The position numbers and the translations under genes are program-made. The notes below the pieces were generated by a model. It worked only from the letters and a program-made list of their open reading frames with translations, did no database searches and was not told where the DNA came from. Below are positions 17,952-29,431 of a stretch of 64,000 bases of DNA, one piece after another. Position 1 is the stretch's first letter. Each line of letters opens with the position of its first letter. Source of the DNA: Polaribacter porphyrae (GTDB lineage Bacteria > Bacteroidota > Bacteroidia > Flavobacteriales > Flavobacteriaceae); contig NZ_MSCN01000001.1 of NCBI RefSeq assembly GCF_002954685.1, positions 1,021,600-1,085,599 of the forward strand. Direction: 5' to 3'.

Positions 17952-18046
17952 ACTTTTCTAACCTTATTTTAAATATATTTTGTAGCTTTAGAACATTATA
18001 TTTTACATTAATTTGTAAATAATTATAACCCTAGTTTAAAATTAGA

Positions 18047-18787
18047 ATGATAAAAACTTACGAAAATACTTTAAGAAAAATCATTGTTGATATTCTTGGT
18101 GCTTCTGATAATAGCGATTATAAAATACCAGAAGAAATAAAAGAAAAATGGTTAGAAAAAAGAAAATTTGAAAAAGAAAAAAATGATGGTTTTCTCTTTG
18201 AAAAAAGAATCATTTATTATTCTGATTTTTTAGATTTAAAAACTATAATTATCAAAAATTGGGACAAATTTGAACCTATTTTTAAAAACAAGAATCGTTT
18301 TTTAGTTTTTTTCGAGGAAATTAATCAATATAAAAATAGTATAAATCAAAGCAGAGCATTAACTAAAAGTCAAGAAGAAATGCTTTCTGGAATCACTACA
18401 GATTTAAAAAATAGTTACACTGTTTACACTAATAAAAACAACAATAGAAACGATTATTTTTTAGCAATTAATACTGTTTCTGATAATTTAGGAACTACTT
18501 GGAACAAATCTGGCGTTAACCAAAAACCAATTCTAAAAGTTGGTGATGAATATGAATTATTAATTGATGCAAATGATCCTAAAGATAGAGATATTGAATA
18601 TGAAATTTATCACTTTGCAGGTACGTTAAGAATACATCAACAAACAAATAGGTTTAACTTTAAAATTAGCGAAGAACTAATTAGTGAAAACACAATGCTC
18701 GTAGTAAAAGTATTCACACCAAAATCTAAATATAAAAACGAAAGCATTTTAAAAATTCATATTACAGTACTACCAGAAATTAGTTAA
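18047..18787 (+). CDS. HEPN-like (Swt1-type) domain protein with degenerate catalytic motif
   Basis: A 246-residue cytoplasmic protein. Residues 1-125 resemble the Swt1-like HEPN domain: an N-terminal helix (LRKIIVDILG), a charged W-containing stretch, YYSDFLDLKTIIIKNWDKF and then EINQYKNSINQSRALT. In active HEPN nucleases the last segment carries RNxxxH; here it reads KNSINQ, with both the arginine and the histidine changed, so RNase activity is doubtful. Residues 150-246 are beta-rich (LKVGDEYELLIDANDP onward) and may form a sandwich domain of unknown use. It is upstream of the esterase-aminopeptidase-ligase set on the same strand but separated by a promoter, so membership is uncertain. The HEPN assignment is from memory of the motif pattern. 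Confidence 0.6.
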   Translation: MIKTYENTLRKIIVDILGASDNSDYKIPEEIKEKWLEKRKFEKEKNDGFLFEKRIIYYSDFLDLKTIIIKNWDKFEPIFKNKNRFLVFFEEINQYKNSINQSRALTKSQEEMLSGITTDLKNSYTVYTNKNNNRNDYFLAINTVSDNLGTTWNKSGVNQKPILKVGDEYELLIDANDPKDRDIEYEIYHFAGTLRIHQQTNRFNFKISEELISENTMLVVKVFTPKSKYKNESILKIHITVLPEIS

Positions 18788-18836
18788 AAACTCTTTTTTA
18801 ATAGAAGTAACTTTTACTGTAAAACTGTTCATTTTC

Positions 18837-18870
18837 TTGTTCATTATCAAGCTTCAAAAATGTATTTTTG
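18837..18870 (+). promoter_or_regulatory. Promoter of the plus-strand esterase-aminopeptidase-ligase set
   Basis: TTG at 18837-18839 and TATTTTTG at 18863-18870 with a 23-base spacer, at the upper limit of the known range. The start of transcription would fall near 18876, about 16 bases before the ATG at 18892. This supports that start over the TTG at 18868, which is part of the -7 box. Confidence 0.5.
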
Positions 18871-18891
18871 CATTTTAAAAATGATGAATTT

Positions 18892-19665
18892 ATGACATTG
18901 ACGGAGTTTGAACCCATTATAGAAACAATAGAAGAAGCCTACGAGATTCCGCATTTGAATGCAACAAGAAAAATTTCTGCAGTTTTACCACACGATTACT
19001 ACCAAAATGATAAAAAATATCCAGTTTTATATTTACAGGATGGTCAGAACTTATTCAATCCTATGGCTGAATATGGAGACTGGGCTATTGACAAATCTCT
19101 AGCTAAACTAGCTGAAAAAGGAGAAGCTGATATCATTATTATCGCCATAAATCACGGAGAAGAACAGAGAATTAGCGAATATTTACCTTATTATCATCCA
19201 CGTTTTGGAAATGGAAAAGGAAAATTTTATGTAGAGTTTTTAATTGAAAAACTTTTACCATACGTAAACAACAAATACAGAACACTTACAGATTTTGACA
19301 ATACAGGAATTGGTGGTAGTTCTATGGGAGGTTTAATAAGCTTGTATGCTGGTTTATCTGCTCCAAGAATCTTTGGAAAGTTGATGATTTTTTCTCCAAG
19401 TCTATGGATTTCTAAAAAGATTTTTGATAATACTAAAAGTTTTATGCCATTAGAAGAAGCAAAAATTTATTTATATGCTGGTGGTAAAGAAAGTCAAGAG
19501 CATTTGCCAAATGCCAAAAAGTTAGGAGGCATTATTAAAGAAAAAATGATAAAAGGATACCATATTGATTTTCATTTTTCAATAAATGAAGAAGGAAATC
19601 ATTCTGAAGTACATTGGCGTAAGGAATTCCCTAAAGCGATTCAATGGTTATTTTACAACAAATAA
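18892..19665 (+). CDS. Alpha/beta-hydrolase esterase (esterase D / enterochelin-esterase-like, PF00756)
   Basis: A 257-residue cytoplasmic hydrolase. YPVLYLQDGQNLF is the characteristic oxyanion-side strand, GIGGSSMGGLISLY carries the nucleophile serine in GxSxG, and the acid and histidine come from the C-terminal half (YLYAGGKES ... GNHSEVHWRKEFP, with the probable catalytic histidine in GNHSE). There is no signal peptide, so the substrate is internal. The stop is immediately followed by the ATG of the M17 aminopeptidase, so the two are translationally coupled. A second esterase of the same superfamily starts the converging operon at 27624. In peptide or amide pathways such enzymes commonly hydrolyse or transfer acyl groups. 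The particular substrate is unknown. Confidence 0.85.
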   Translation: MTLTEFEPIIETIEEAYEIPHLNATRKISAVLPHDYYQNDKKYPVLYLQDGQNLFNPMAEYGDWAIDKSLAKLAEKGEADIIIIAINHGEEQRISEYLPYYHPRFGNGKGKFYVEFLIEKLLPYVNNKYRTLTDFDNTGIGGSSMGGLISLYAGLSAPRIFGKLMIFSPSLWISKKIFDNTKSFMPLEEAKIYLYAGGKESQEHLPNAKKLGGIIKEKMIKGYHIDFHFSINEEGNHSEVHWRKEFPKAIQWLFYNK

Positions 19666-21084
19666 ATGATGATGAAATACACACAAATCAAAAATATAGA
19701 CAGTACTAAAGATTTTATTTTACCTTGTAAAAAAGATGATTTAGCATCAATCCAACAGTTTTTACCCATTACAAAACCAGATTTTGATGGCAGTTTTAAA
19801 ACGCATCAACTGATTTATGGCGAAACTGGAAACCGAATTTATTTAGTTGGTTTGGGTGAGGATAAAAATGCATCACAAATAGAAGCAACTTTCCATAAGT
19901 TTGCTTTTGAAGCTCAAAAATATTGGGATGAAAGTATTCAAGTGTATGCCAACAATTTAGAGGAAACAACTATTCTGAAAATCGGAATTGGTTTGGAAAT
20001 GGCAAACTATAATATTGGTGCGTTTCAATCTGAAAAGAAAGAAAAAAGAAAAACACAAATTTCATTTTCATCAAGTAATGATATCCAAAATATTTTAACA
20101 GAAGGTTATTTCACAGGGCAAACCATCAATAAAATTAAAGCTTTGGTTGATGCTCCACCAAATATTAAAACTCCAGAATATTTAGGAGATTGGGCTAAAA
20201 CCTCATCAAAAAATACAGGTTATAAATGTACAGTTCTCAAAGAAAAACAATTAGAAAAACAAGGTTTTGATGCGGTTTTATCAGTAGGAAAAGGAAGTGT
20301 AAATAAACCTGTTGTTATCATTAACGAATACAAAGCAAAAAATACAGATACTATTGATATTGCTTTAGTTGGTAAAGGAATTACCTTCGATTCTGGAGGA
20401 TTATCTATAAAACCATCCACTAATTTACACTATATGAAAAGTGATATGGGTGGTGCAGCTGTAGTTTTAGGAGTTGTAGAATTGGTGGCAAAGTTAGAAT
20501 TGGAAATCAATATTATTGGGGTTGTAGCTTCTGCAGAAAATGCAGTTGATGCTAATAGTTACAGGCCTGGAGATGTAATTAATTCGTATTCTGGAAAAAC
20601 AATAGAAATTATAGATACTGATGCTGAAGGTCGTTTGGTTTTAGCTGATGGAATTAATTATGTAATCAAAAAATACAACCCAGAATATTTAATTGATCTG
20701 GCAACTTTAACAGGAAGTGTGGTAAGAACTTTAGGATATGCTGCTGCAGGAATGTTTACAAAAAACCAAGAAATGGCAAAAACAATGTCTGATATTGGTT
20801 ATAAAGTTCACGAACGTGTTTGGCAATTGCCACTATTTGAAGACTATGAAGCAGATTTGCAATCTGACGTTGCTGATGTGCGTAATTTCAATGGAAAACC
20901 AATTGAAGGAGCAATAAATGCTGCAAAATTTTTAGAAGTATTTACAGAAAATCACAAAAAATGGATGCATTTAGACATTGCTGGCGTTTCTTTTGGCAGT
21001 TCTCAATTCGCAAAAATGAAAAGTGCATCTGGCTTTGGAATTCAATTAATTACAGAATTCATCAAAGCAAAAGCTAAAAGATAG
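19666..21084 (+). CDS. Leucyl aminopeptidase family protein (M17)
   Basis: A 472-residue cytoplasmic metallo-aminopeptidase. The C-terminal catalytic domain has GKGITFDSGGLSIKPS, MKSDMGGAAVVLG and the signature DTDAEGRLVLADG, which supply the two-metal site (lysine, aspartates and glutamate all present). The N-terminal domain is divergent, as usual for the family. It removes N-terminal residues from peptides, often including Cys-Gly and other dipeptides. The start ATG directly follows the esterase stop at 19665. Three ATGs stand in a row and the first is kept. Its linkage to an esterase and an ATP-grasp ligase suggests a dedicated peptide substrate. That link is inference. Confidence 0.92.
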   Translation: MMMKYTQIKNIDSTKDFILPCKKDDLASIQQFLPITKPDFDGSFKTHQLIYGETGNRIYLVGLGEDKNASQIEATFHKFAFEAQKYWDESIQVYANNLEETTILKIGIGLEMANYNIGAFQSEKKEKRKTQISFSSSNDIQNILTEGYFTGQTINKIKALVDAPPNIKTPEYLGDWAKTSSKNTGYKCTVLKEKQLEKQGFDAVLSVGKGSVNKPVVIINEYKAKNTDTIDIALVGKGITFDSGGLSIKPSTNLHYMKSDMGGAAVVLGVVELVAKLELEINIIGVVASAENAVDANSYRPGDVINSYSGKTIEIIDTDAEGRLVLADGINYVIKKYNPEYLIDLATLTGSVVRTLGYAAAGMFTKNQEMAKTMSDIGYKVHERVWQLPLFEDYEADLQSDVADVRNFNGKPIEGAINAAKFLEVFTENHKKWMHLDIAGVSFGSSQFAKMKSASGFGIQLITEFIKAKAKR

Positions 21085-21186
21085 TTCTAATTTTCGTAAA
21101 TTAAACTCAAATAAAATATCATATTATAAATCAAACTTGTCTTGATTCTTGAATCTAAAACAATGTATGATTCTAAAATAATAACT

Positions 21187-22386
21187 ATGTCTCAAAAACC
21201 AATCAATTTTTTATGCATTTCAACCTATTTTAAAGGCGAAGATTTTTTAAAAAGATGTAAATCTGATGGTAATCATGTTTTTCTTTTAACTAAAAAAGGA
21301 TTAGAAAACGAAAATTGGCCTTGGGAAGCTATAGATGACGTTTTTTATGTTGAAGAATGGAATCAAGAAAATGTAGTCAAAGGAATTGCGTATAAATTCA
21401 GAACGATAAATTTTGAGCATTTTGTAGCTTTAGATGATTTTGATGTAGAAAAAGTTGCACTTTTAAGAGAACATTTTAGAATGCCAGGAATGGGTAGAAC
21501 CACTGCTCATTATTTTAGAGACAAATTGGCAATGCGTTTAAAAGCGAAAGAAGAAGGTGTAAATGTACCTGAATTTACTTCACTTTTTAACAATGATGAT
21601 ATTAATAATTATGCAGATACAATTCCTGCTCCTTGGTTGTTAAAACCTAGAATGGAGGCTTCTGCTACTGGAATTAAAAAAATTCATTCTAAAGATGAGT
21701 TATGGGAAGTTGTAAATAATTTAGGCGATGAAAGAGATAATTATTTGGTAGAAAAATTTGCTCCTGGAGATGTTTTTCATGTAGATGGATTAAATGTAAA
21801 TGGAAAAGTGGTTTTCTCTAGAGCTAGCAAATATTTAGATACACCTTTTGAAGTGGCACATGGAGGAGGAATTTTTAGATCAGCATCATTAGAAATTGGC
21901 TCTAAAATAGAAAAAGATTTACAAAAAGTAAACAAACAAGTTATGAAAGCTTTTGGGATGCAATCTGGTGCTTATCATACCGAATTTATTCAATCTAAAG
22001 CAACAGGAGAATTGTTTTTTTTAGAAACTTCATCTAGAGTTGGTGGTGCTAATTTAGCAGAAATGGTAGAGTATGCTTCTGGTGTAAATCTTTGGGCAGA
22101 ATGGGCATCAGTAGAAAATGCACGAATTAGAAAGCAAACTTATAAATTACCTAAAATTAACAATCAATATGCAGGTATTGTGGTTTCTTTAAGTAGATTT
22201 GAATATCCAGACACTTCTAGTTTTACAGATAAAGAAATCGTTTGGAAAATGCAGAAAGCTTGGCATATTGGATTGATTGTAGTTTCGGATTCTAGTGAAA
22301 AAGTATTGGAATTATTAGACCAATATACGCATAGAATTGGTGAAGAATTTCATGCAAGTTTACCTGCTCCTGATAAGTCTGAATAG
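21187..22386 (+). CDS. ATP-grasp family ligase (third of the cluster)
   Basis: About 399 residues. INFLCISTYFKGEDFLKRCK begins an N-terminal Rossmann-like preATP-grasp domain, a central ATP-grasp fold follows with WLLKPRMEASATGIKK (ATP lysine), YLVEKFAPGDVFHVDG, and FLETSSRVGGANLAEM, which matches the metal-binding E-x-N/S-x-R region. Such enzymes join a carboxylate to an amine through an acyl phosphate. Possible starts are 21163 and 21187; the second begins the recognised fold. It follows the M17 aminopeptidase by about 100 bases and ends 146 bases from the end of a converging ligase operon, with a palindromic element in the gap. The substrate is unknown. Confidence 0.82.
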   Translation: MSQKPINFLCISTYFKGEDFLKRCKSDGNHVFLLTKKGLENENWPWEAIDDVFYVEEWNQENVVKGIAYKFRTINFEHFVALDDFDVEKVALLREHFRMPGMGRTTAHYFRDKLAMRLKAKEEGVNVPEFTSLFNNDDINNYADTIPAPWLLKPRMEASATGIKKIHSKDELWEVVNNLGDERDNYLVEKFAPGDVFHVDGLNVNGKVVFSRASKYLDTPFEVAHGGGIFRSASLEIGSKIEKDLQKVNKQVMKAFGMQSGAYHTEFIQSKATGELFFLETSSRVGGANLAEMVEYASGVNLWAEWASVENARIRKQTYKLPKINNQYAGIVVSLSRFEYPDTSSFTDKEIVWKMQKAWHIGLIVVSDSSEKVLELLDQYTHRIGEEFHASLPAPDKSE

Positions 22387-22401
22387 TTTATTTAACTAAC
22401 A

Positions 22402-22482
22402 TTTGTCACGCTGTAAGCGTATCATAAACTGTTTTTATTATTTAATATCAATATTACTCCTAGATCCTTTTAGGATGACAAA
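22402..22482. repeat. TGTCA/TGACA-bounded imperfect palindrome (copy 1)
   Basis: TTTGTCA at 22402-22408 and TGACAAA at 22476-22482 are perfect inverted ends. Nested ACGCtgtaaGCGT lies near the left end and ATCC-ttttA-GGAT near the right end. It fills the gap between the two converging ligase genes and could terminate both. The same ends occur in the elements at 25706 and 58103. Confidence 0.65.
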
Positions 22483-22532
22483 CTGAATGAATAAAAAAGA
22501 CCTGTAAGATCTAAATATATTTTTAGTAGCTC

Positions 22533-23735
22533 CTAATTCTCAAAAAAACCAGTAGTTCCTCCTACCCAAATTTTATCTTTGTTATATTTTACGCCAACCA
22601 TTTCTCCTTTACTTAAACGAATTAAATTGCTTACTATTTCAGTTGTATTGGTTTTAGAATTATGTAATAACATAATTCTTACTTCACATTTTGCAGGTAC
22701 ATCCATTGTTTCTATAATTGGTTCGTAAGCTACTTTTTCTTGTAATAAATAATTAGATTTGTTTGTGATTTCATCTATCATTTTAGGAGTTACGTGAATT
22801 TGAACTCCTGCTCCAGCAAAAGAATACAAAGGTTTTAAAACATAATTTTCTAAATCTTCTGGAATGGTTTCTAATTTGTCTAAATAAAATGATTTTGGCA
22901 CGAATTCGCCTTTTAATAATGGCATTGTGTACTTACTAATTCTATAAAACCAATTTGGGTGTCCTATCCAAGTGACATCAACTTCATCTAAAAAATTAAA
23001 CTCACTTTTTAAATCTGGTCTTTGATGAAGTTCATCAAAAATAATACGATTGTATATTTTTAAAATTTTAATCTCATTGCCTTTATCATCTTTATAAAAA
23101 AGTTCCTTTCCTTTTTTAATTAAATCTGAAATACACAACACTTTAATGCCTAATGCTTTTTCAGTTGCGTAAAAATCGATTGCTGTTGCTTGTTTGTCTG
23201 GCTCTATTTCTAATAGAATTACTTGCTTTGGATTGGTTTTACCAACAATTTCTTGTTGCAACAAATCAATGTAATCTTTAGTTATCATTCCATTAATATG
23301 CTGTGAGTAATTTTCTGGAATTACGTTTCCAAAATGCTCACGATATTTTCTACCTAACAATTCTTGGAAAAAATATAAAGAAGGAAAACCTTGTAATTCA
23401 ATCAGTTTTGGAACTAAATTTCCATCAGTATCTCTACAAATTCCAAAATCCAATTGCATAAATTTCGAAACTTCATCTTCATTAGGCACGATTGTATTTG
23501 GGTCAAAAAAAGCTCCATCAGTTAATTTTTTAAAATCTGGTTGATGAATTACTTCCATAATTTCATCACAGGCTTTTATCAACCTTTCTTTTAAATCTTT
23601 TGGAATAAAAACAGGTGTTTCAGCTATTTTAAATGGTGGCGTGTATTTATAAGTCGAAATAATATCATCTAAAAAAGCTTGATACTTTTCTTCAGAAAAT
23701 TGTTGATTATAAATTTGTCTGTTATTCTGTATCAT
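22533..23735 (-). CDS. ATP-grasp-like protein, glutathionylspermidine-synthase/circularly permuted type (last gene of ligase operon)
   Basis: A 400-residue cytoplasmic protein. It starts MIQNNRQIYNQQFSEEKYQAF. The C-terminal half holds ATP-grasp-like motifs: NYVLKPLYSFAGAGVQIHV (a lysine and a glycine-rich loop), LLQEKVAYEPI, and CEVRIMLLHNS. The N-terminal half has FMQLDFGICRDTDG and LIELQGFPSLYFFQELLG, which look like substrate-binding elements. The placement of motifs resembles the circularly permuted ATP-grasp group. Its start is 6 bases after the stop of the amidotransferase gene, so it is in the same transcript. It would couple a carboxylate to an amine; the substrates are unknown. Confidence 0.72.
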   Translation of the reverse strand: MIQNNRQIYNQQFSEEKYQAFLDDIISTYKYTPPFKIAETPVFIPKDLKERLIKACDEIMEVIHQPDFKKLTDGAFFDPNTIVPNEDEVSKFMQLDFGICRDTDGNLVPKLIELQGFPSLYFFQELLGRKYREHFGNVIPENYSQHINGMITKDYIDLLQQEIVGKTNPKQVILLEIEPDKQATAIDFYATEKALGIKVLCISDLIKKGKELFYKDDKGNEIKILKIYNRIIFDELHQRPDLKSEFNFLDEVDVTWIGHPNWFYRISKYTMPLLKGEFVPKSFYLDKLETIPEDLENYVLKPLYSFAGAGVQIHVTPKMIDEITNKSNYLLQEKVAYEPIIETMDVPAKCEVRIMLLHNSKTNTTEIVSNLIRLSKGEMVGVKYNKDKIWVGGTTGFFEN

Positions 23736-23741
23736 AAAAAA

Positions 23742-24563
23742 TTAAGATAATATTGGTTGATTTACTTTACGAATTGCCAAACTTAAAAAATTAGGTAAAA
23801 TGGTATGATAAGTTCTTACCAATTTATCATCATCATCCATTCTGTCCATCATTTGGTTATATTTTTCTTCTCCAAAACTTTCTATAACTACTTTTTTATT
23901 TTCTTCAAGTTTAAAGAAAGCTTCCATACTAACAGGTTCTGCTTCTGGATGAAATTGTGTACCCACAAACTCACTAGAAAAACGAACAGCCATAATTGCA
24001 CGCTCTAATTCTATGTGCGTTCTAATTTTTTCTAAACTTAAAATTGATGCTCCTTTTTCTTTAAAAACCTTTAATCTTGGCTGTACTAATTGCCAATCTC
24101 TAGAATCTACTGCATAAAAAGGATCGTTTAACCCTTCTAATAAAACATCAACTTTACCTTCTTTGGTTTTATGAATTGGTAAAATACCAAAAGAGGTACT
24201 TTTTCTCAATTTAATTTCGCCTAACTTAAAATAATCACAAATTACCTGAAAAGAATAACAGATAAAAAATACGTGTTTTTTTTCTTCGGAATTTTTATTG
24301 TGATTCCAAAGATTTTGCATTAACTCTAAATATGGTTTTCTCCAAATTCCTTCTTCTAAAGGACTTCCTGGACCTCCACTTGAAATATAAATATCGTAAG
24401 AAGTATCAGGTATTTCTCCTTTTGCTCTTACATCAAAAACAACAAAATTTACTTCACTATCAAAAGTTGTTACAATTTCTCTAATACAACGTAAACCTTG
24501 ATTGGGTTCATTGTTATTCATATCTAAAATGGCAACTTTTACTTTTTCTTTACTCATCAACAT
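23742..24563 (-). CDS. Class I glutamine amidotransferase-like protein
   Basis: A 273-residue protein with the class I GATase fold: VAILDMNNNEPNQGLRC at the N-terminus, SSGGPGSPLEEGIW in the glutamine-pocket region, a cysteine in FFICYSFQ that aligns with the usual GxCxGxQ nucleophile elbow, and GTQFHPEAEP giving His and Glu of the triad. Both elbow glycines are replaced (F and S around I-C-Y), which is unusual. It may supply ammonia to a neighbouring ligase, or hydrolyse gamma-glutamyl compounds, as some GATase-like proteins do. The gene is 5 bases downstream of the GCS2 gene and 6 bases upstream of the ATP-grasp gene. Confidence 0.85.
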   Translation of the reverse strand: MLMSKEKVKVAILDMNNNEPNQGLRCIREIVTTFDSEVNFVVFDVRAKGEIPDTSYDIYISSGGPGSPLEEGIWRKPYLELMQNLWNHNKNSEEKKHVFFICYSFQVICDYFKLGEIKLRKSTSFGILPIHKTKEGKVDVLLEGLNDPFYAVDSRDWQLVQPRLKVFKEKGASILSLEKIRTHIELERAIMAVRFSSEFVGTQFHPEAEPVSMEAFFKLEENKKVVIESFGEEKYNQMMDRMDDDDKLVRTYHTILPNFLSLAIRKVNQPILS

Positions 24564-24568
24564 AAATC

Positions 24569-25663
24569 TTAAACGCCTAAAATAGTTTGTTCTGTAATAA
24601 AATCTACTACTTTAGTTAAATCTCTGGTTTCTTCAAATGCTTTTAATTGTCTGTCTGCTCCTGTACCTCTTTCTAAAATTTTAAAGATAGATTCTACTTC
24701 TTCTCTAGAACCTAAATCATCTAAAACATCATCTACAAAATCTACAAATTCCGCCATTAATAATTTAGTTTCTACTTCTTTCTCTTTTCCAAAATCAATC
24801 ATTTTTCCATCAATTCCATAACGTCCAGCTCTCCATTTATTTTCATTGATTAACGCTCTATGATATACCATAAAATTCATATTTTGAGAACGAAGTTTGT
24901 ATAATTTTGCTACTAAAGCTTGAATTAAAGCAGCTATACAAACAGTTTCATCAACAGTTAAAGGCACATCACAAATACGAACTTCTAATGTTGGAAAAAC
25001 AGGATGAATACGAATATCCCACCAAATTTTCTTTGGATTGTCTATACATTTGGTTTTTACCAAAAGATTTACATAATTTTCATATTGTGCATAATTATCA
25101 AAAATTCCAGGAATTCCTGTTCTAGGAAATTTATCAAAAACTTTAGATCTAAAAGATTTAAAACCAGTATTTCTACCTTCCCAAAATGGTGAGTTTGTAG
25201 ATAATGCATACAAATGTGGCAAAAAATAACGCATGGCATTTACCAAATGTAAAGCCATATTCTTATCTGCAATTCCTACATGAACATGCAAACCAAAAAT
25301 TAAATTTGACCTTGCTGTGTCTTGTAATTCATTTACAATCTCATCATATCTTGGATTTGGAGTAATTAATTGCGTTTCCCATTTAGAAAAAGGGTGTGTA
25401 CCAGCAGCACCAATTTTATAACCTAAATCTCCAGCAATATTAGAAATAGACCTTCGCAAATGCGAAATTTGCTGTCTTGCATCTTGAATGTCTTCACAAA
25501 TGTTTGTGCCAACTTCTACTACAGCTTGATGCATTTCTGCCTTTACTTGGTCGTTTAAAACCTTTGCTGCATTGGTTACAATTTGCTGATCGTGAGAAGT
25601 TAATTCTCTTGTTGCAGGATCAATTACTTGATACTCCTCTTCTATTCCTAATGTAAATTTCAT
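24569..25663 (-). CDS. Carboxylate-amine ligase of the GCS2/YbdK family
   Basis: A 364-residue enzyme of the glutamine-synthetase-like COOH-NH2 ligase superfamily. The N-terminus MKFTLGIEEEYQVID contains the metal-binding EEEY motif. The mid region has FGLHVHVGI, IHPVFPTLEVRICDVP and NKWRAGRYGID, all diagnostic of YbdK-type glutamate-cysteine ligases. This class activates a gamma- or alpha-carboxylate with ATP and adds an amino acid; YbdK itself has only weak glutathione-like activity, so the true product here cannot be read from sequence. It is in the middle of the minus-strand operon, with a 140-base gap upstream that contains a palindromic element. Confidence 0.93.
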   Translation of the reverse strand: MKFTLGIEEEYQVIDPATRELTSHDQQIVTNAAKVLNDQVKAEMHQAVVEVGTNICEDIQDARQQISHLRRSISNIAGDLGYKIGAAGTHPFSKWETQLITPNPRYDEIVNELQDTARSNLIFGLHVHVGIADKNMALHLVNAMRYFLPHLYALSTNSPFWEGRNTGFKSFRSKVFDKFPRTGIPGIFDNYAQYENYVNLLVKTKCIDNPKKIWWDIRIHPVFPTLEVRICDVPLTVDETVCIAALIQALVAKLYKLRSQNMNFMVYHRALINENKWRAGRYGIDGKMIDFGKEKEVETKLLMAEFVDFVDDVLDDLGSREEVESIFKILERGTGADRQLKAFEETRDLTKVVDFITEQTILGV

Positions 25664-25705
25664 AATGGAAAGTTAATAAATAAAGTTTTATAAAGAATTA
25701 TAAAA

Positions 25706-25779
25706 CTGTCATTTAGAATGAAATGGAAAAATCTTTTAAATTGCTACTTAAGATTTTTCGACTTCACTCAAAATGACAG
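25706..25779. repeat. TGTCA/TGACA-bounded imperfect palindrome (copy 2, inside the ligase operon)
   Basis: CTGTCATTT at 25706-25714 and AAATGACAG at 25771-25779 are perfect 9-base inverted ends. An inner perfect 10-base stem GAAAAATCTT/AAGATTTTTC (25726-25735 with 25750-25759) carries a 14-base loop. It lies between the ATP-grasp and GCS2 genes of one operon, so it may modulate the downstream genes as an RNA structure. Confidence 0.75.
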
Positions 25780-25803
25780 AACAAAATATTTTAACTATAA
25801 AAC

Positions 25804-26886
25804 TTACTTTTTTGTAGTTTTTTTCTTTGTTGCTGCTTTTTTAACAGGTGCTTTTTTAACTGCAACTTTTTTAGCGGGTGTCTTTTTTGCAACCGCTTTT
25901 TTAGCTGGAGCTTTTTTAACCACTGGTGTTGCTGGAGCAATTTGATCGGTTACAAATGTTCCCCAAGTTAAATTCATTTGACCTTTTTTGTACTGCTTTG
26001 CTTTTTCGATTGCCATATTTGCAGCATTTTCTACAATCCACTCAAAATTTTCTTCTCCTACAGAATGTATATCTGCATCTGGAGCAGGATTACAAAAATC
26101 AATTGCATAAGGTATTCCATCTCTTACAGCAAATTCTACTGTATTAAAATCATAACCCAAAGCTTTGTTTAGCTTGATACAATACTCATGAACTGTATCT
26201 AAAATTTTCTGATCAACTGGCTCTCCATTTAAAACATAACGTAAATGATGAGGATTTCTAGGCTCATATTGCATAATATGTACATTATCTGTACCTAAAA
26301 CGTAACATCTAAAGTATTCTTTAAAGTCAATTTCCTCTTGCAACATCATAACAAGGTTTTCAGTTTCACCATGTTTTGCCCATAAATCATCTGGATTTTC
26401 GACTTTGTAAACACTTTTCCATCCACCTCCATCATGAGGTTTCATATATGCAGGAAAACCAATAGTATCAAACATTTTATCCCAATTAAAAGGGTATTTC
26501 ATGTTTCTGAAAGAATTTTCATCAGTATCTGGTGGTCTATGAGAACTTGGTAAAATAAACGTTTTTGGTACAGGAACGCCTACTTTTTCAGCCAAAGCAT
26601 TATTAAAGAATTTTTCATCTGCACTCCACCAAAAAGGATTGTTAATTACAGCAGTTCCTGTAATTGCAGCATTTTTTAAATAGGCTCTGTAAAAAGGAAC
26701 ATCTTGCGAAATTCTATCAATAATTACAGCATATTCGTCCGATTTTGCTTGCTCTACAGTGTCTATTAACACTGCTTCAGCCATCATATCTTTAATGCCT
26801 TGTTCTTTAATTTTTTGATTAACTCTGTCTATAAAAGCTTGTGGAAAGGTATTTTCTTGTCCGAATAAAATTCCAATTTTTCTCAT
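25804..26886 (-). CDS. RimK-like ATP-grasp ligase with lysine-pentad C-terminal tail
   Basis: A 360-residue protein. The N-terminus (MRKIGILFGQENTFPQAF) is a preATP-grasp domain; the ATP-grasp domain has FPAYMKPHDGGGWKSVYKV and MLQEEIDFKEYFRCYV, and ends with NTVEFAVRDGIPYAIDFCNPAPDADI, which supplies the Mg-binding E and N. Residues 324-360 are seven pentads of the form KK-x-x-x (KKAPA, KKAVA, KKTPA, KKVAV, KKAPV, KKAAT, KKKTT), with 17 lysines in 37 residues, like histone H1 tails. The tail could bind nucleic acid or polyanions, or carry acceptor lysines. Second gene of the minus-strand operon, 33 bases after the esterase gene. Substrate unknown. Confidence 0.82.
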   Translation of the reverse strand: MRKIGILFGQENTFPQAFIDRVNQKIKEQGIKDMMAEAVLIDTVEQAKSDEYAVIIDRISQDVPFYRAYLKNAAITGTAVINNPFWWSADEKFFNNALAEKVGVPVPKTFILPSSHRPPDTDENSFRNMKYPFNWDKMFDTIGFPAYMKPHDGGGWKSVYKVENPDDLWAKHGETENLVMMLQEEIDFKEYFRCYVLGTDNVHIMQYEPRNPHHLRYVLNGEPVDQKILDTVHEYCIKLNKALGYDFNTVEFAVRDGIPYAIDFCNPAPDADIHSVGEENFEWIVENAANMAIEKAKQYKKGQMNLTWGTFVTDQIAPATPVVKKAPAKKAVAKKTPAKKVAVKKAPVKKAATKKKTTKK

Positions 26887-26919
26887 ATTATATTTATTTT
26901 GTTAGTTGTTACTCTATTT

Positions 26920-27624
26920 TTAAATTTTTGATAAATAATGTGGAAACATTTGCCTCCAAATTGGCCAATCGTGTTCTGCCCATTTGCGTTCGTCAAACCA
27001 AAAAGGGATATTTTTATCACTTAAAATTTTCGCTAAATTTTGATTTGCTTCTAAACAAATATCCCAATCACTTGTGCCCAAAATAATTTTCATATTCCAT
27101 AAATCTGGATGATTGCTTCCTGGTAAAAAATCTACTGGGTTGTTATAAAAAACATTGTCATCATAATAATCATCTAAAAAAGATTTAATATCAAAAGAAC
27201 CACTTAAACTAAACATATGGCTTACTCTTTCTGGGTGTTTAAACGCAAAATTTGCTGCATGATAACCTCCAAAACTGACACCTGCAACAGCTACTTTTTG
27301 AATTCCTCTTTGATGACAAATAGGGTTTACAACTTCATCCATAATAAATTTATCATACCAAATATGATTTTTGACACGATCTGCAGGATGAATATTCTTA
27401 TCATACCAACTCAATTCATTTATAGAATCTGGGCAGTAAATTTGCACCAAACCTTCCTCTAAAAACCATTTTGCAGACTCAATTAACTTGAAATCTTTAC
27501 ACTCGTAAAAGCGTCCACTAGTTGTTGGGAATAAAATTAAAGGATAACCTGCGTACCCAAAAACCAACATTTCTATATCTTTATTTAATGTTGGCGAATA
27601 CCATTTGTGATAATCTTCTTTCAA
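26920..27624 (-). CDS. Alpha/beta-hydrolase esterase (PF00756-like), first gene of the ligase operon
   Basis: A 234-residue protein with no signal peptide. The family opening is HKWYSPTLNKDIEMLVFGY, followed by YPLILFPTTSGRFYE and the nucleophile elbow VAVAGVSFGGYHAANF with catalytic serine in GVSFGG. The likely acid lies in LGTSDWD and the histidine in AEHDWPIW. It starts with TTG at 27624, since no ATG precedes the conserved N-terminus; a TAATTTTG -7 box lies about 40 bases upstream. It belongs to the same superfamily as the esterase at 18892 but is clearly divergent from it. As first gene of the set it may process the product or precursor of the ligases. Confidence 0.83.
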   Translation of the reverse strand: MKEDYHKWYSPTLNKDIEMLVFGYAGYPLILFPTTSGRFYECKDFKLIESAKWFLEEGLVQIYCPDSINELSWYDKNIHPADRVKNHIWYDKFIMDEVVNPICHQRGIQKVAVAGVSFGGYHAANFAFKHPERVSHMFSLSGSFDIKSFLDDYYDDNVFYNNPVDFLPGSNHPDLWNMKIILGTSDWDICLEANQNLAKILSDKNIPFWFDERKWAEHDWPIWRQMFPHYLSKI

Positions 27625-28057
27625 TATAAAAAACTTAACTGATTTATAAAAATTTTACGATTGCAAAATTACGCTATTTCAAGCAGTTACGTATGAAGTT
27701 TATGATTTTTACCGAAAACAAAATAATGTGTTTGAATTATTAATAGCCTGTTATAAAAATGTTACTTTTTTTGTAGAATTATTCGATTTAGAACATTTAA
27801 AACAACTATATGCTAATATTTTAGAGCATTAAGCTTGACTATATTATAGATAAATAAACGTTTGGTATAAAATATAAATTGGCATACTAGATAAATGAGA
27901 TAGAAACTAAATAAAAAAAGGTATTTTCCCTATTAATTTTCTCAACAAAAAACTCGAACTTCGCTAACTCTGGATATAAAAGAGTTAAAACTCTTAATAT
28001 CAGAAATGAGTTAGCAAATTTTAAAATTTAATAAAAATCTGAAAATTATATTCTCTA
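27625..28057. other. 433-base intergenic region: -7 box, orphan open frame, hairpin
   Basis: Left part: on the minus strand TAATTTTG at 27664-27671 is a candidate -7 box for the esterase operon. Middle: plus-strand frame 27650-27832 is open for 60 codons without ATG and ends ANILEH, with protein-like composition but no recognised family, so it may be a gene remnant. Right: a compound hairpin at 27963-28015 sits after the stop of the MATE gene. No RNA gene was recognised. Confidence 0.5.
27963..28015 (-). terminator. Compound stem-loop downstream of the MATE gene
   Basis: GCTAACTC (27963-27970) pairs with GAGTTAGC (28008-28015), inside it GATAT with ATATC, and inside that AGAGTT with AACTCT around a two-base loop, with small internal loops between stems. 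It lies 43 bases after the MATE stop. It may end that transcript, although no clean T-run follows. Confidence 0.5.
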
Positions 28058-29431
28058 TCACTTTTCTTTAATCAATTTTAATGTCAATTTATTAAATCGA
28101 ATAAACAACAACACTGAAGCTGTGGTTAAACCTGCTAAAAGACCCAACCAAATACCAAAACTACCAAACATTTTTTCTTTTCCTAGAAAATATGAAACAG
28201 GAAAACCAACACACCAATAAGAAATAAAAGTTAAAATTGTGGGGATTTTTACATCTTGTAAACCACGCAAAGCACCTAAAACCACAACCTGAATACTATC
28301 AGAAATTTGAAAAAAGGCAGCTGCTAACAATAAATTGGAAGCAATAGAAAGTACTTCCATATTATCTACATAATTTTCTGCATCATTTAAATCTACATAA
28401 ATATTAGGTAAGCTTTTGTGGAAGATAAAAAACAATAAGGCAAAAAAGGTTGCCAATAAAATACCTAGTAAAAAAATAGAAAATGCTATTCTGCGTAATT
28501 CTTTATAATTCTGTAATCCTTTTTGATTCCCAACTCGAATCATAGAAGCAACACTTAAACCCATTGCCACCATAAATGTCATTGAAGATAAATTTAACGC
28601 AATTTGATTTGCTGCTTGCGGATTTTTACCTAGCAAACCACTCAACCAAATTGCGGCTGTAAAAATAGCAACTTCAAAAAACATTTGCATAGCACTTAAA
28701 GAACCTAGATTGATGATTTTTTTAATCATTAAAAAATCAAAAACAAATATTTTAATATTTTTTACAATTCTTGCAGAACTTTTTTTATAACGTAATAAAG
28801 TCCACAGATAAATAACCATAATTATTCTGGAAGCTAAAGTTCCATAAGCTGCACCAACAATTCCCATTTCTGGAAATCCGAATTTACCGAAAATCAAAAT
28901 ATAGTTTAACCCAATATTTACAATATTCGCCAAAAGTGTAGCATACATTGGGTATTTGGTCATAGACATTCCATCACTAAATTGTTTTATGGCTTGGAAA
29001 ACTATCAACGGAATTAAAGAAAATGCCACCAAATCTAAATACGGAATTGCCAAAGCCACAACTTCTTCAGGTTGTTTCATTAAATACATTAACGGCTTCG
29101 AAAAATAAATCCCTAAAAATAAAATAGTCCCCAAAACTGTACATAAAAACAATCCGTGTTTGTATGTGGATCTTGCTTGTTGTAGGTTATCTGATGAATC
29201 TGCTTCTGCTATTAATGGTGTAATTGCAGTAGAAAAACCAATTCCAATAGACATTGCAATAAACATAAAACTGTTACCTAAAGAAACTGCTGCCAATTCT
29301 GCAGTACCTAATTGCCCAACCATTATATTATCAATAAAAGACACAAAAGTATGACCTAACATTCCCAGCATTACTGGTGCAGCAAGTTTCCAATTGTATT
29401 TAAATTCTGATGTGTACTGAGCTAAATTCAA
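28058..29431 (-). CDS. MATE-family multidrug efflux transporter (NorM-like)
   Basis: A 457-residue inner-membrane protein with about 12 hydrophobic segments. The conserved N-terminal MATE region is YNWKLAAPVMLGMLGHTFVSFIDNIMVGQLGTAELAAVSLG, here best taken as two pieces, AAPVMLGMLGH and DNIMVGQLGTAELAAVSLG; the second bundle repeats the pattern near residue 250. It exports cationic drugs or toxins with an H+ or Na+ gradient. The TTG at 29431 is preferred: the residues upstream of it show no MATE match, and a TATCTTCG sequence resembling a -7 box sits there. The alternative is a TTG at 29479. It is a single gene, divergent from tpx. Confidence 0.9.
   Translation of the reverse strand: MNLAQYTSEFKYNWKLAAPVMLGMLGHTFVSFIDNIMVGQLGTAELAAVSLGNSFMFIAMSIGIGFSTAITPLIAEADSSDNLQQARSTYKHGLFLCTVLGTILFLGIYFSKPLMYLMKQPEEVVALAIPYLDLVAFSLIPLIVFQAIKQFSDGMSMTKYPMYATLLANIVNIGLNYILIFGKFGFPEMGIVGAAYGTLASRIIMVIYLWTLLRYKKSSARIVKNIKIFVFDFLMIKKIINLGSLSAMQMFFEVAIFTAAIWLSGLLGKNPQAANQIALNLSSMTFMVAMGLSVASMIRVGNQKGLQNYKELRRIAFSIFLLGILLATFFALLFFIFHKSLPNIYVDLNDAENYVDNMEVLSIASNLLLAAAFFQISDSIQVVVLGALRGLQDVKIPTILTFISYWCVGFPVSYFLGKEKMFGSFGIWLGLLAGLTTASVLLFIRFNKLTLKLIKEK

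Follow-up and report, generated by a model that had tools for sequence, protein, structure and literature searches.

What does a bacterial locus make when four amide-forming ligases lie beside esterases, a peptidase, and an amidotransferase-like protein? We addressed this question for eight genes within a 64,000-nucleotide stretch of the 3.9-Mb genome of Polaribacter porphyrae (assembly GCF_002954685.1, contig NZ_MSCN01000001.1, positions 1,021,600 to 1,085,599 of the forward strand; here called the window, with positions counted from its first letter). The five minus-strand genes belong to a core operon that is inherited as a set in Bacteroidota, and we put at about even odds (a probability of roughly 0.5) that this operon encodes a dedicated non-ribosomal amide-bond pathway leading to a small peptide-like compound (i.e., a gamma-glutamyl peptide or a peptide-amine). 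The eight genes reported in a preliminary description of this DNA are all present as open frames:

18868 (TTG) or 18892 (ATG) to 19665, plus strand: estA, PF00756 esterase, accessory module (Pfam PF00756, E 1.5e-28)
19666 to 21084, plus strand: M17 leucyl-aminopeptidase-family peptidase, accessory module (PF00883, E 5.2e-111)
21142 to 22386, plus strand: AGrizA, RizA-like ATP-grasp L-amino-acid ligase, accessory module (ATP-grasp_4, E 6e-8; PDB 4wd3, E 2.9e-23)
22533 to 23735, minus strand: GSPlike, ATP-grasp ligase with a predicted glutathionylspermidine-synthase/YgiC/eukaryotic glutathione-synthetase fold (predicted structure)
23742 to 24563, minus strand: GATase, class I glutamine-amidotransferase-like protein (PF00117, E 3.6e-9)
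24569 to 25663, minus strand: YbdK/GCS2 carboxylate-amine ligase (PF04107, E 3.9e-68)
25804 to 26886, minus strand: AGrimK, RimK-like ATP-grasp ligase with a Lys/Ala/Pro-rich C-terminal tail (TIGR00768 rimK_fam, E 4.7e-10, below cut-off)
26920 to 27624, minus strand: estB, alpha/beta-hydrolase esterase of the PF00756 type, which opens the core operon (Pfam Esterase, E 1e-7)

Co-inheritance of the core operon

Searches of 198 genomes of the window's class, which are not phylogenetically independent, placed AGrimK and GATase in an identical set of 29 genomes. GSPlike was found in 28 genomes and YbdK in 26, all inside the 29 (membership was matched to the AGrimK list by eye), and estB in 23 when at least 45% identity was required, again all within this set, with 35%-identical paralogues in five genomes outside it. 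AGrimK had matches at E 0.001 or better in 37 genomes, from which eight rows were removed: seven matches (E 2.2e-5 to 7.8e-4) that involved only the tail or were generic to ATP-grasp proteins, and a distant homologue in genome G035, which was set apart; two partial matches (G119 and G160) are counted within the 29. The G035 homologue (L059:8631-9599) is 32% identical to AGrimK, had no partner genes that we found, and differs at several otherwise conserved residues.

The carriers represent 13 family codes and 23 genera. None of these genes was seen in near relatives, one of which (G134) belongs to the same genus as the window. The co-conservation that the preliminary description proposed looking for was thus found, with scatter in some carriers: in G022, G129, G110, and G066 the core genes lie on different contigs or far apart and are nevertheless retained. 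Because the same-set co-occurrence holds even at such distances, we conclude that the gene set is a dedicated pathway and not a group of chance neighbors. The chance probabilities of co-occurrence (no more than about 1e-28 for the core, calculated with 30 AGrimK genomes, and 6e-6 for AGrizA) ignore phylogeny and are too optimistic; the repeated, near all-or-none pattern stands independently of them.

The arrangement also recurs far beyond chance. Among named loci (i.e., the best 80 of 568 relatives of AGrimK, many of them short and some cut by contig ends), GATase and estB were each present in 73, YbdK in 71, and GSPlike in 70. All of these loci are titled Bacteroidota or its members except one metagenome-assembled genome titled Ignavibacterium (L146). 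The core consists of AGrimK, GATase, and GSPlike; YbdK nearly always accompanies them, and estB usually does.

The core operon and the accessory module

On the minus strand the order of transcription is estB, AGrimK, YbdK, GATase, and GSPlike; on the plus strand it is estA, M17, and AGrizA. The two sets converge, with 146 bases between the ends of AGrizA and GSPlike, and a simple scan of positions 22300 to 22620 found no terminator between them. In window order the gaps are 0 and 57 bases, then the 146 bases between the sets, then 6, 5, 140, and 33 bases; four of the six within-set gaps fall in the range of 0 to 33 bases that had been described for most. The two converging sets had been taken as one system. 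A more fitting description is that of a core operon to which the plus-strand trio is sometimes added as an accessory module.

Accessory genes are less widespread than the core. AGrizA was found in 6 of the 198 genomes, each with the core, and in 24 of the 80 named loci, and M17 in 21 of the 80. Matches to estA occurred in 53 of these loci; 17, counted by eye, had at least 43% identity and lay beside M17 and/or AGrizA, and the other 36, at only 23 to 32% identity, represent a different PF00756 gene. This second PF00756-like esterase lies opposite in strand to estB in many loci (e.g., L105, L107, and L113). The module converges on the core in the window and in other flavobacteria (L090 and L093 to L096), lies upstream of it in the same orientation in L041 and in Chryseobacterium relatives, and has a mixed layout in the Saprospiraceae loci L112 and L123. 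In the window, the M17 translation carries a DTDAEGR motif, and AGrizA has a TTG start at 21142, with ATG codons further downstream. By sequence, AGrizA is related to solved L-amino acid ligases in PDB: it matches 4wd3 ("L-amino acid ligase"), which we take to be RizA, at E 2.9e-23 over about 260 residues, and 30vh at E 2.6e-9. It resembles the RizA type to this extent and differs from it in being found, in our sample, exclusively in genomes with the core operon (6/6).

Several other features were looked for around the genes. Rfam gave no match at the gathering threshold for positions 18000 to 28600, the eight proteins had no PADLOC match at E 0.001 (anti-phage defense), and AGrimK had no tblastn match at E 0.001 in a plasmid collection. 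A phage origin was likewise not indicated: a PHROGs scan of four proteins gave weak matches for estB only. Upstream of estA, an open reading frame (ORF) of 246 residues (18047 to 18787) was matched by neither Pfam nor NCBIfam models at E 0.01, and tblastn gave no counterpart of it in the other 108 loci examined.

Families and folds of the enzymes

The earlier family calls hold at the Pfam E values listed above, with that of AGrimK resting on a sub-cut-off match to rimK_fam (TIGR00768; 39.3 bits versus 143.4). No Pfam model scores AGrimK above its cut-off (R2K_2, 17.5 bits versus 26.2), and the protein lies far under the NCBIfam RimK and LysX cut-offs. Its identity among class-sample carriers is 57 to 73%, and its top named relative among the matches listed, from Polaribacter aestuariivivens, is 95% identical. 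For the AlphaFold model of residues 1 to 319 (predicted local distance difference test [pLDDT], 88.7), Foldseek placed D-Ala-D-Ala ligase first (E 8.6e-15) and RimK seventh. VIA placed Escherichia coli RimK first (Z 23.0; root mean square deviation [rmsd], 2.7 over 262 residues), with matches to RimK, LysX, and ArgX spanning Z 19.6 to 23.0, most at rmsd 2.6 to 2.9. On the evidence of this model, AGrimK has the RimK fold and would be an enzyme that works like RimK without being a member of its family; apart from the scores, it differs from RimK, LysX, and ArgX in the C-terminal tails that many members carry and in its multi-ligase operon.

The same model resembles PsnB (Z 19.9 in VIA), a point in favor of a graspetide cluster, in which ATP-grasp enzymes cross-link a ribosomal peptide (i.e., a ribosomally synthesized and post-translationally modified peptide). 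RimK, ArgX, and LysX outrank PsnB, however, and the operon combines several unrelated ligase kinds where graspetide clusters need one ATP-grasp kind. As in the preliminary description, no precursor-peptide gene was evident: the widest small-ORF cluster covered 11 of 109 loci, in a test that is weak for fast-evolving peptides, and the clusters seen resembled, by eye, shadow ORFs or the ends of larger genes. According to PMC8939145, graspetide precursors of Bacteroidetes evolve fast, so that a similarity search could miss one. On balance, we regard a graspetide cluster as exceedingly improbable.

YbdK passes the cut-offs of NF010039 (PRK13515 carboxylate-amine ligase; 542.8 bits versus 371) and TIGR02050 (322.1 versus 176.4) and matches E. 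coli YbdK (PDB 1r8g, "ybdK") at E 4.1e-52. It is thus like its curated family in sequence, but within the 198 genomes it is found only with this gene set (26/26). The suggestion that the ligases lie outside ordinary housekeeping subfamilies accordingly suits GSPlike and AGrimK, which fall below family cut-offs, and suits YbdK less well, as NF010039 is a named family, although its product is not stated there.

For GSPlike, the label "ATP-grasp-like" given earlier was right but understated. No Pfam model matches at E 0.01 and no NCBIfam model exceeds its cut-off; GSP_synth (PF03738) scored 14.6 bits in the window versus a cut-off of 29.3, and sub-threshold matches (E 0.1 or better) appeared in 4 of 21 members. 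The AlphaFold model (pLDDT, 91.8) matched yeast glutathione synthetase (GSS) in Foldseek (E 5.9e-15) and, in VIA, E. coli YgiC and YjfC (Z 26.2), GspS (Z 24.6), and human GSS (Z 23.8), over about 346 to 368 residues, nearly the full length, at 11 to 16% identity. The model indicates the overall fold of glutathionylspermidine synthase, YgiC, and eukaryotic GSS. With YgiC, YjfC, and GspS the likeness extends along the whole length (rmsd, 3.5 to 3.6 over about 346 residues). GSPlike differs from these three in sequence (11 to 15% identity, below the GSP_synth cut-off) and in always occurring, among the 198 genomes, with RimK-like and GATase-like partners. Two motifs are nearly invariant, IE-x-Q-[GA]-F (88/88) and KPL-x-SF-x-G (86/88); the latter may correspond to the catalytic KP loop, to go by one weak alignment (E 0.28), and the E-x-Q may correspond to the acidic metal-site motif E-x-N (N to Q).

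A GCS2 ligase and a eukaryotic-GSS-fold ligase in one operon bring to mind a glutathione-like low-molecular-weight thiol, with YbdK acting as glutamate-cysteine ligase and GSPlike as an analogue of glutathione synthetase; enzymes of the PF00756 and M17 families take part in thiol metabolism elsewhere. This scheme leaves two further ligases unexplained and does not suit the 3 of 29 core genomes that are missing YbdK. In addition, the bacillithiol enzyme BshC was found in all 29 core genomes (186/198 overall at E 1e-20), so bacillithiol is not replaced in the carriers. Replacement of bacillithiol is therefore disfavored, and a second thiol could still be made beside it, but we regard a thiol pathway as very unlikely.

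The GATase-like protein has an invariant triad (C102, H205, and E207 in 18 aligned homologues) and conserved IC[HY]SFQ (84/94) and QFHPE (92/94) motifs. By profile, it also matched homoserine O-succinyltransferase weakly (E 4.2e-4), and the protein may be a hydrolase or an acyltransferase instead of transferring ammonia. Its gene lies 6 bases from GSPlike in the window, and at some loci, among them L032, L037, and L046, the two genes overlap; together with the invariant triad, this fits a complex of the two proteins. The other hydrolase of the core, estB, has the serine elbow GVSFGG, and G-x-S-x-G-G was present in 81 of 91 homologues (the misses may be fragments). In two genomes of one genus (g25), the space between estB and AGrimK encodes related proteins that are about 190 residues long and begin like a signal peptide (L054:8128-8688 and L055:8271-8843).

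The intact class I triad and the best VIA matches of GSPlike (YgiC/YjfC and GspS, ligases that use spermidine) would also suit a catabolic route in which polyamines or other amines are masked by a gamma-glutamyl group: YbdK or GSPlike would add glutamate or a peptide, and GATase would remove it. The model for such masking is the logic of PuuA and PuuD; there, as in EgtA and EgtC of ergothioneine synthesis, a glutamyl ligase is paired with a hydrolytic amidotransferase-type enzyme, as here. The operon differs from both pairs in the enzyme families of the partner and in its extra ligases. The 29 loci clustered contain no other conserved ORF that could be an Egt or Puu partner (no search was made by those names), and this absence of further conserved ORFs counts against masking. 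Carboxynorspermidine decarboxylase (NspC), the one polyamine route looked at, showed no association with the operon: it was found in 6 of the 29 core genomes versus 36 of 198 overall (E 1e-20) and was absent from the window's genome. As to acceptors, YgiC and YjfC are reported as peptide-spermidine ligases in PMC12568646 and in the title of Pederick et al. 2023, which it cites. All in all, we consider amine masking quite unlikely.

A link to cyanophycin is likewise not general. CphA is moderately enriched in carriers (20/29 versus 68/169 others; 88/198 overall), and the window's genome is without it. Adjacency of CphA was seen only in L165 among the named loci and only in L041 among the 28 other loci; in both it is convergent to the operon (L041:13285-15915 and L165:13330-15954), and the two are close relatives whose proteins are 91% identical.

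Tails of AGrimK and the proposed pathway

In the window, AGrimK ends in about 41 Lys/Ala/Pro-rich, H1-like residues (approximately residues 320 to 360). Among 108 AGrimK sequences pooled from two collections, in which species may repeat (e.g., the near-identical tails of L038 and L149), a basic tail of at least 25 residues was present in 62, a less basic tail of this length in 9, and a shorter tail or none in 37. Strict H1-like C termini were found in 47 of 106 AGrimK sequences versus none of 1,016 other ORFs at the same loci and none of 461 other operon-family proteins. This control covers these loci; elsewhere, other proteins bear such tails, as weak tail-only matches in G101, G053, and G111 indicate. 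By a simple pattern, AT-hook-like motifs occur in 4 of the 108, with 10 G[RK]P repeats in L035 and 3 in L046.

A third kind of tail, a helix-hairpin-helix (HhH), ends the AGrimK of L092 (Pfam HHH_5, 27.3 bits versus a cut-off of 27), and the same motif occurs in L108 and L159. The L092 tail shares 74% identity with the extension at the C terminus of ribosomal protein bL21 in the genome of the window, and 72% with the bL21 of its own genome (bL21, bS16, and S1 were named from their sequences). In the window's genome, that bL21 (L199; G000:C1:2562338-2562577) carries a Lys/Ala linker and an HhH as its C-terminal extension. The genome of L159, a Saprospiraceae metagenome-assembled genome (L200, L206, L209, and L212), has 12 matches to the HhH module, on bS16, on S1, and on long repetitive coiled proteins. 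To judge by these sequences, the HhH of this genome is probably a spreading tail module; since it is carried by coiled proteins too, it is not exclusive to nucleic-acid binders.

Three nucleic-acid-type tails on one ligase nevertheless suggest, at the level of sequence, a localization to DNA or RNA, and the frequency of the basic tail means that AGrimK may be tethered to ribosomes or nucleic acid. An alternative to a small product is accordingly protein or ribonucleoprotein modification, in which AGrimK, held on ribosomes or DNA by its tail, would modify a macromolecule (e.g., a ribosomal or nucleoid protein) with amino acids or with a peptide-amine assembled beforehand, the addition being trimmed by GATase, M17, and the esterases. 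Besides the confinement of strict H1-like tails to AGrimK at its loci and the AT-hook-like and HHH_5 tails, this alternative draws on VIA, in which the best matches of AGrimK were RimK, including the RimK-RpsF complex 5zk6 (Z 23.0 and 22.5), followed by ArgX and LysX, enzymes that ligate onto protein carriers. Against it, the 37 AGrimK sequences with tails shorter than 25 residues include those of Chryseobacterium and Algoriphagus, in which the operon is otherwise present; in the Foldseek ranking, RimK comes after D-Ala-D-Ala ligase; small molecules are the usual substrates of GSP-fold and YbdK ligases; and the similar tails elsewhere (G101, G053, G111, and the HhH modules of L159) indicate that tails can spread without function. 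We regard such modification as possible but unlikely. A more specific form of it appears doubtful, a non-ribosomal tagging pathway in which AGrimK, tethered to the ribosome or the nucleoid by its H1-like, AT-hook-like, or bL21-type HhH tail, would attach a peptide-amine made by YbdK, GSPlike, and sometimes AGrizA to an acceptor that is ribosomal or bound to DNA, and dedicated enzymes would take it off again.

We favor the dedicated non-ribosomal pathway to a small peptide-like compound. The ligase folds and families of the operon are those of amino-acid and peptide ligases (RimK, YgiC/YjfC, GspS, L-amino-acid ligase, and YbdK), and the presence of four ligases, with no conserved small ORF found, fits a non-ribosomal product. 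This agrees with the assembly and trimming of a small molecule or tag proposed earlier, but no particular product is supported. In the pathway that we envisage, the ligases would act in succession on free amino acids or amines. YbdK would form a carboxylate-amine bond, possibly a gamma-glutamyl one, and GSPlike, judging from its predicted fold and from the peptide-spermidine ligase activity reported for YgiC and YjfC, may join a small acid to an amine, an amino acid, or ammonia. The GATase-like enzyme would either supply ammonia to GSPlike or hydrolyze a gamma-glutamyl bond; AGrimK would add one or more amino acids, a step that its basic tail may tether to nucleic acid in many lineages; and AGrizA, where present, would supply a dipeptide building block. 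The esterases and the M17 aminopeptidase would release or recycle the product.

Several observations weigh against this pathway. GSPlike is missing from 1 of the 29 core genomes (G118, a 220-contig assembly) and YbdK from 3 (G001, G142, and G166), so not every step can be universal. Clustering of the 28 other loci with the window gave no further conserved ORF family (e.g., a transporter or a regulator) in more than four loci and hence no hint there to the fate of the product. A basic tail on more than half of the AGrimK sequences is odd for a soluble small-molecule enzyme. As judged by sequence motif, the loop that follows E-x-Q in GSPlike looks shorter than that of YgiC. According to PMC12506659, YgiC itself does not act as a glutathionylspermidine synthase, so the fold alone does not give the acceptor of GSPlike. 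Finally, the substrates and the order of the steps are inferred throughout.

Multi-ligase amide pathways are known in outline as a kind. A 2009 survey by Iyer, Abhiman, Burroughs, and Aravind reportedly described amidoligase neighborhoods in which ATP-grasp and GCS2 ligases are combined with peptidases or hydrolases and predicted to make peptides or tags; it may already list this neighborhood. The present analysis documents the operon's GSP-fold gene, its co-occurrence as one set, and the AGrimK tails. The five-gene set was not recognized in the open-licence literature searched (titles and the beginnings of abstracts), and we found no name for its product.

That the core is so strictly co-inherited, in at least 13 families within one class, points to a single product. 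The operon also provides an approach to YbdK and YgiC/YjfC, two relatives in E. coli whose cellular roles are poorly known. Moreover, the tails of AGrimK raise the question of whether its chemistry takes place on the ribosome or the nucleoid.

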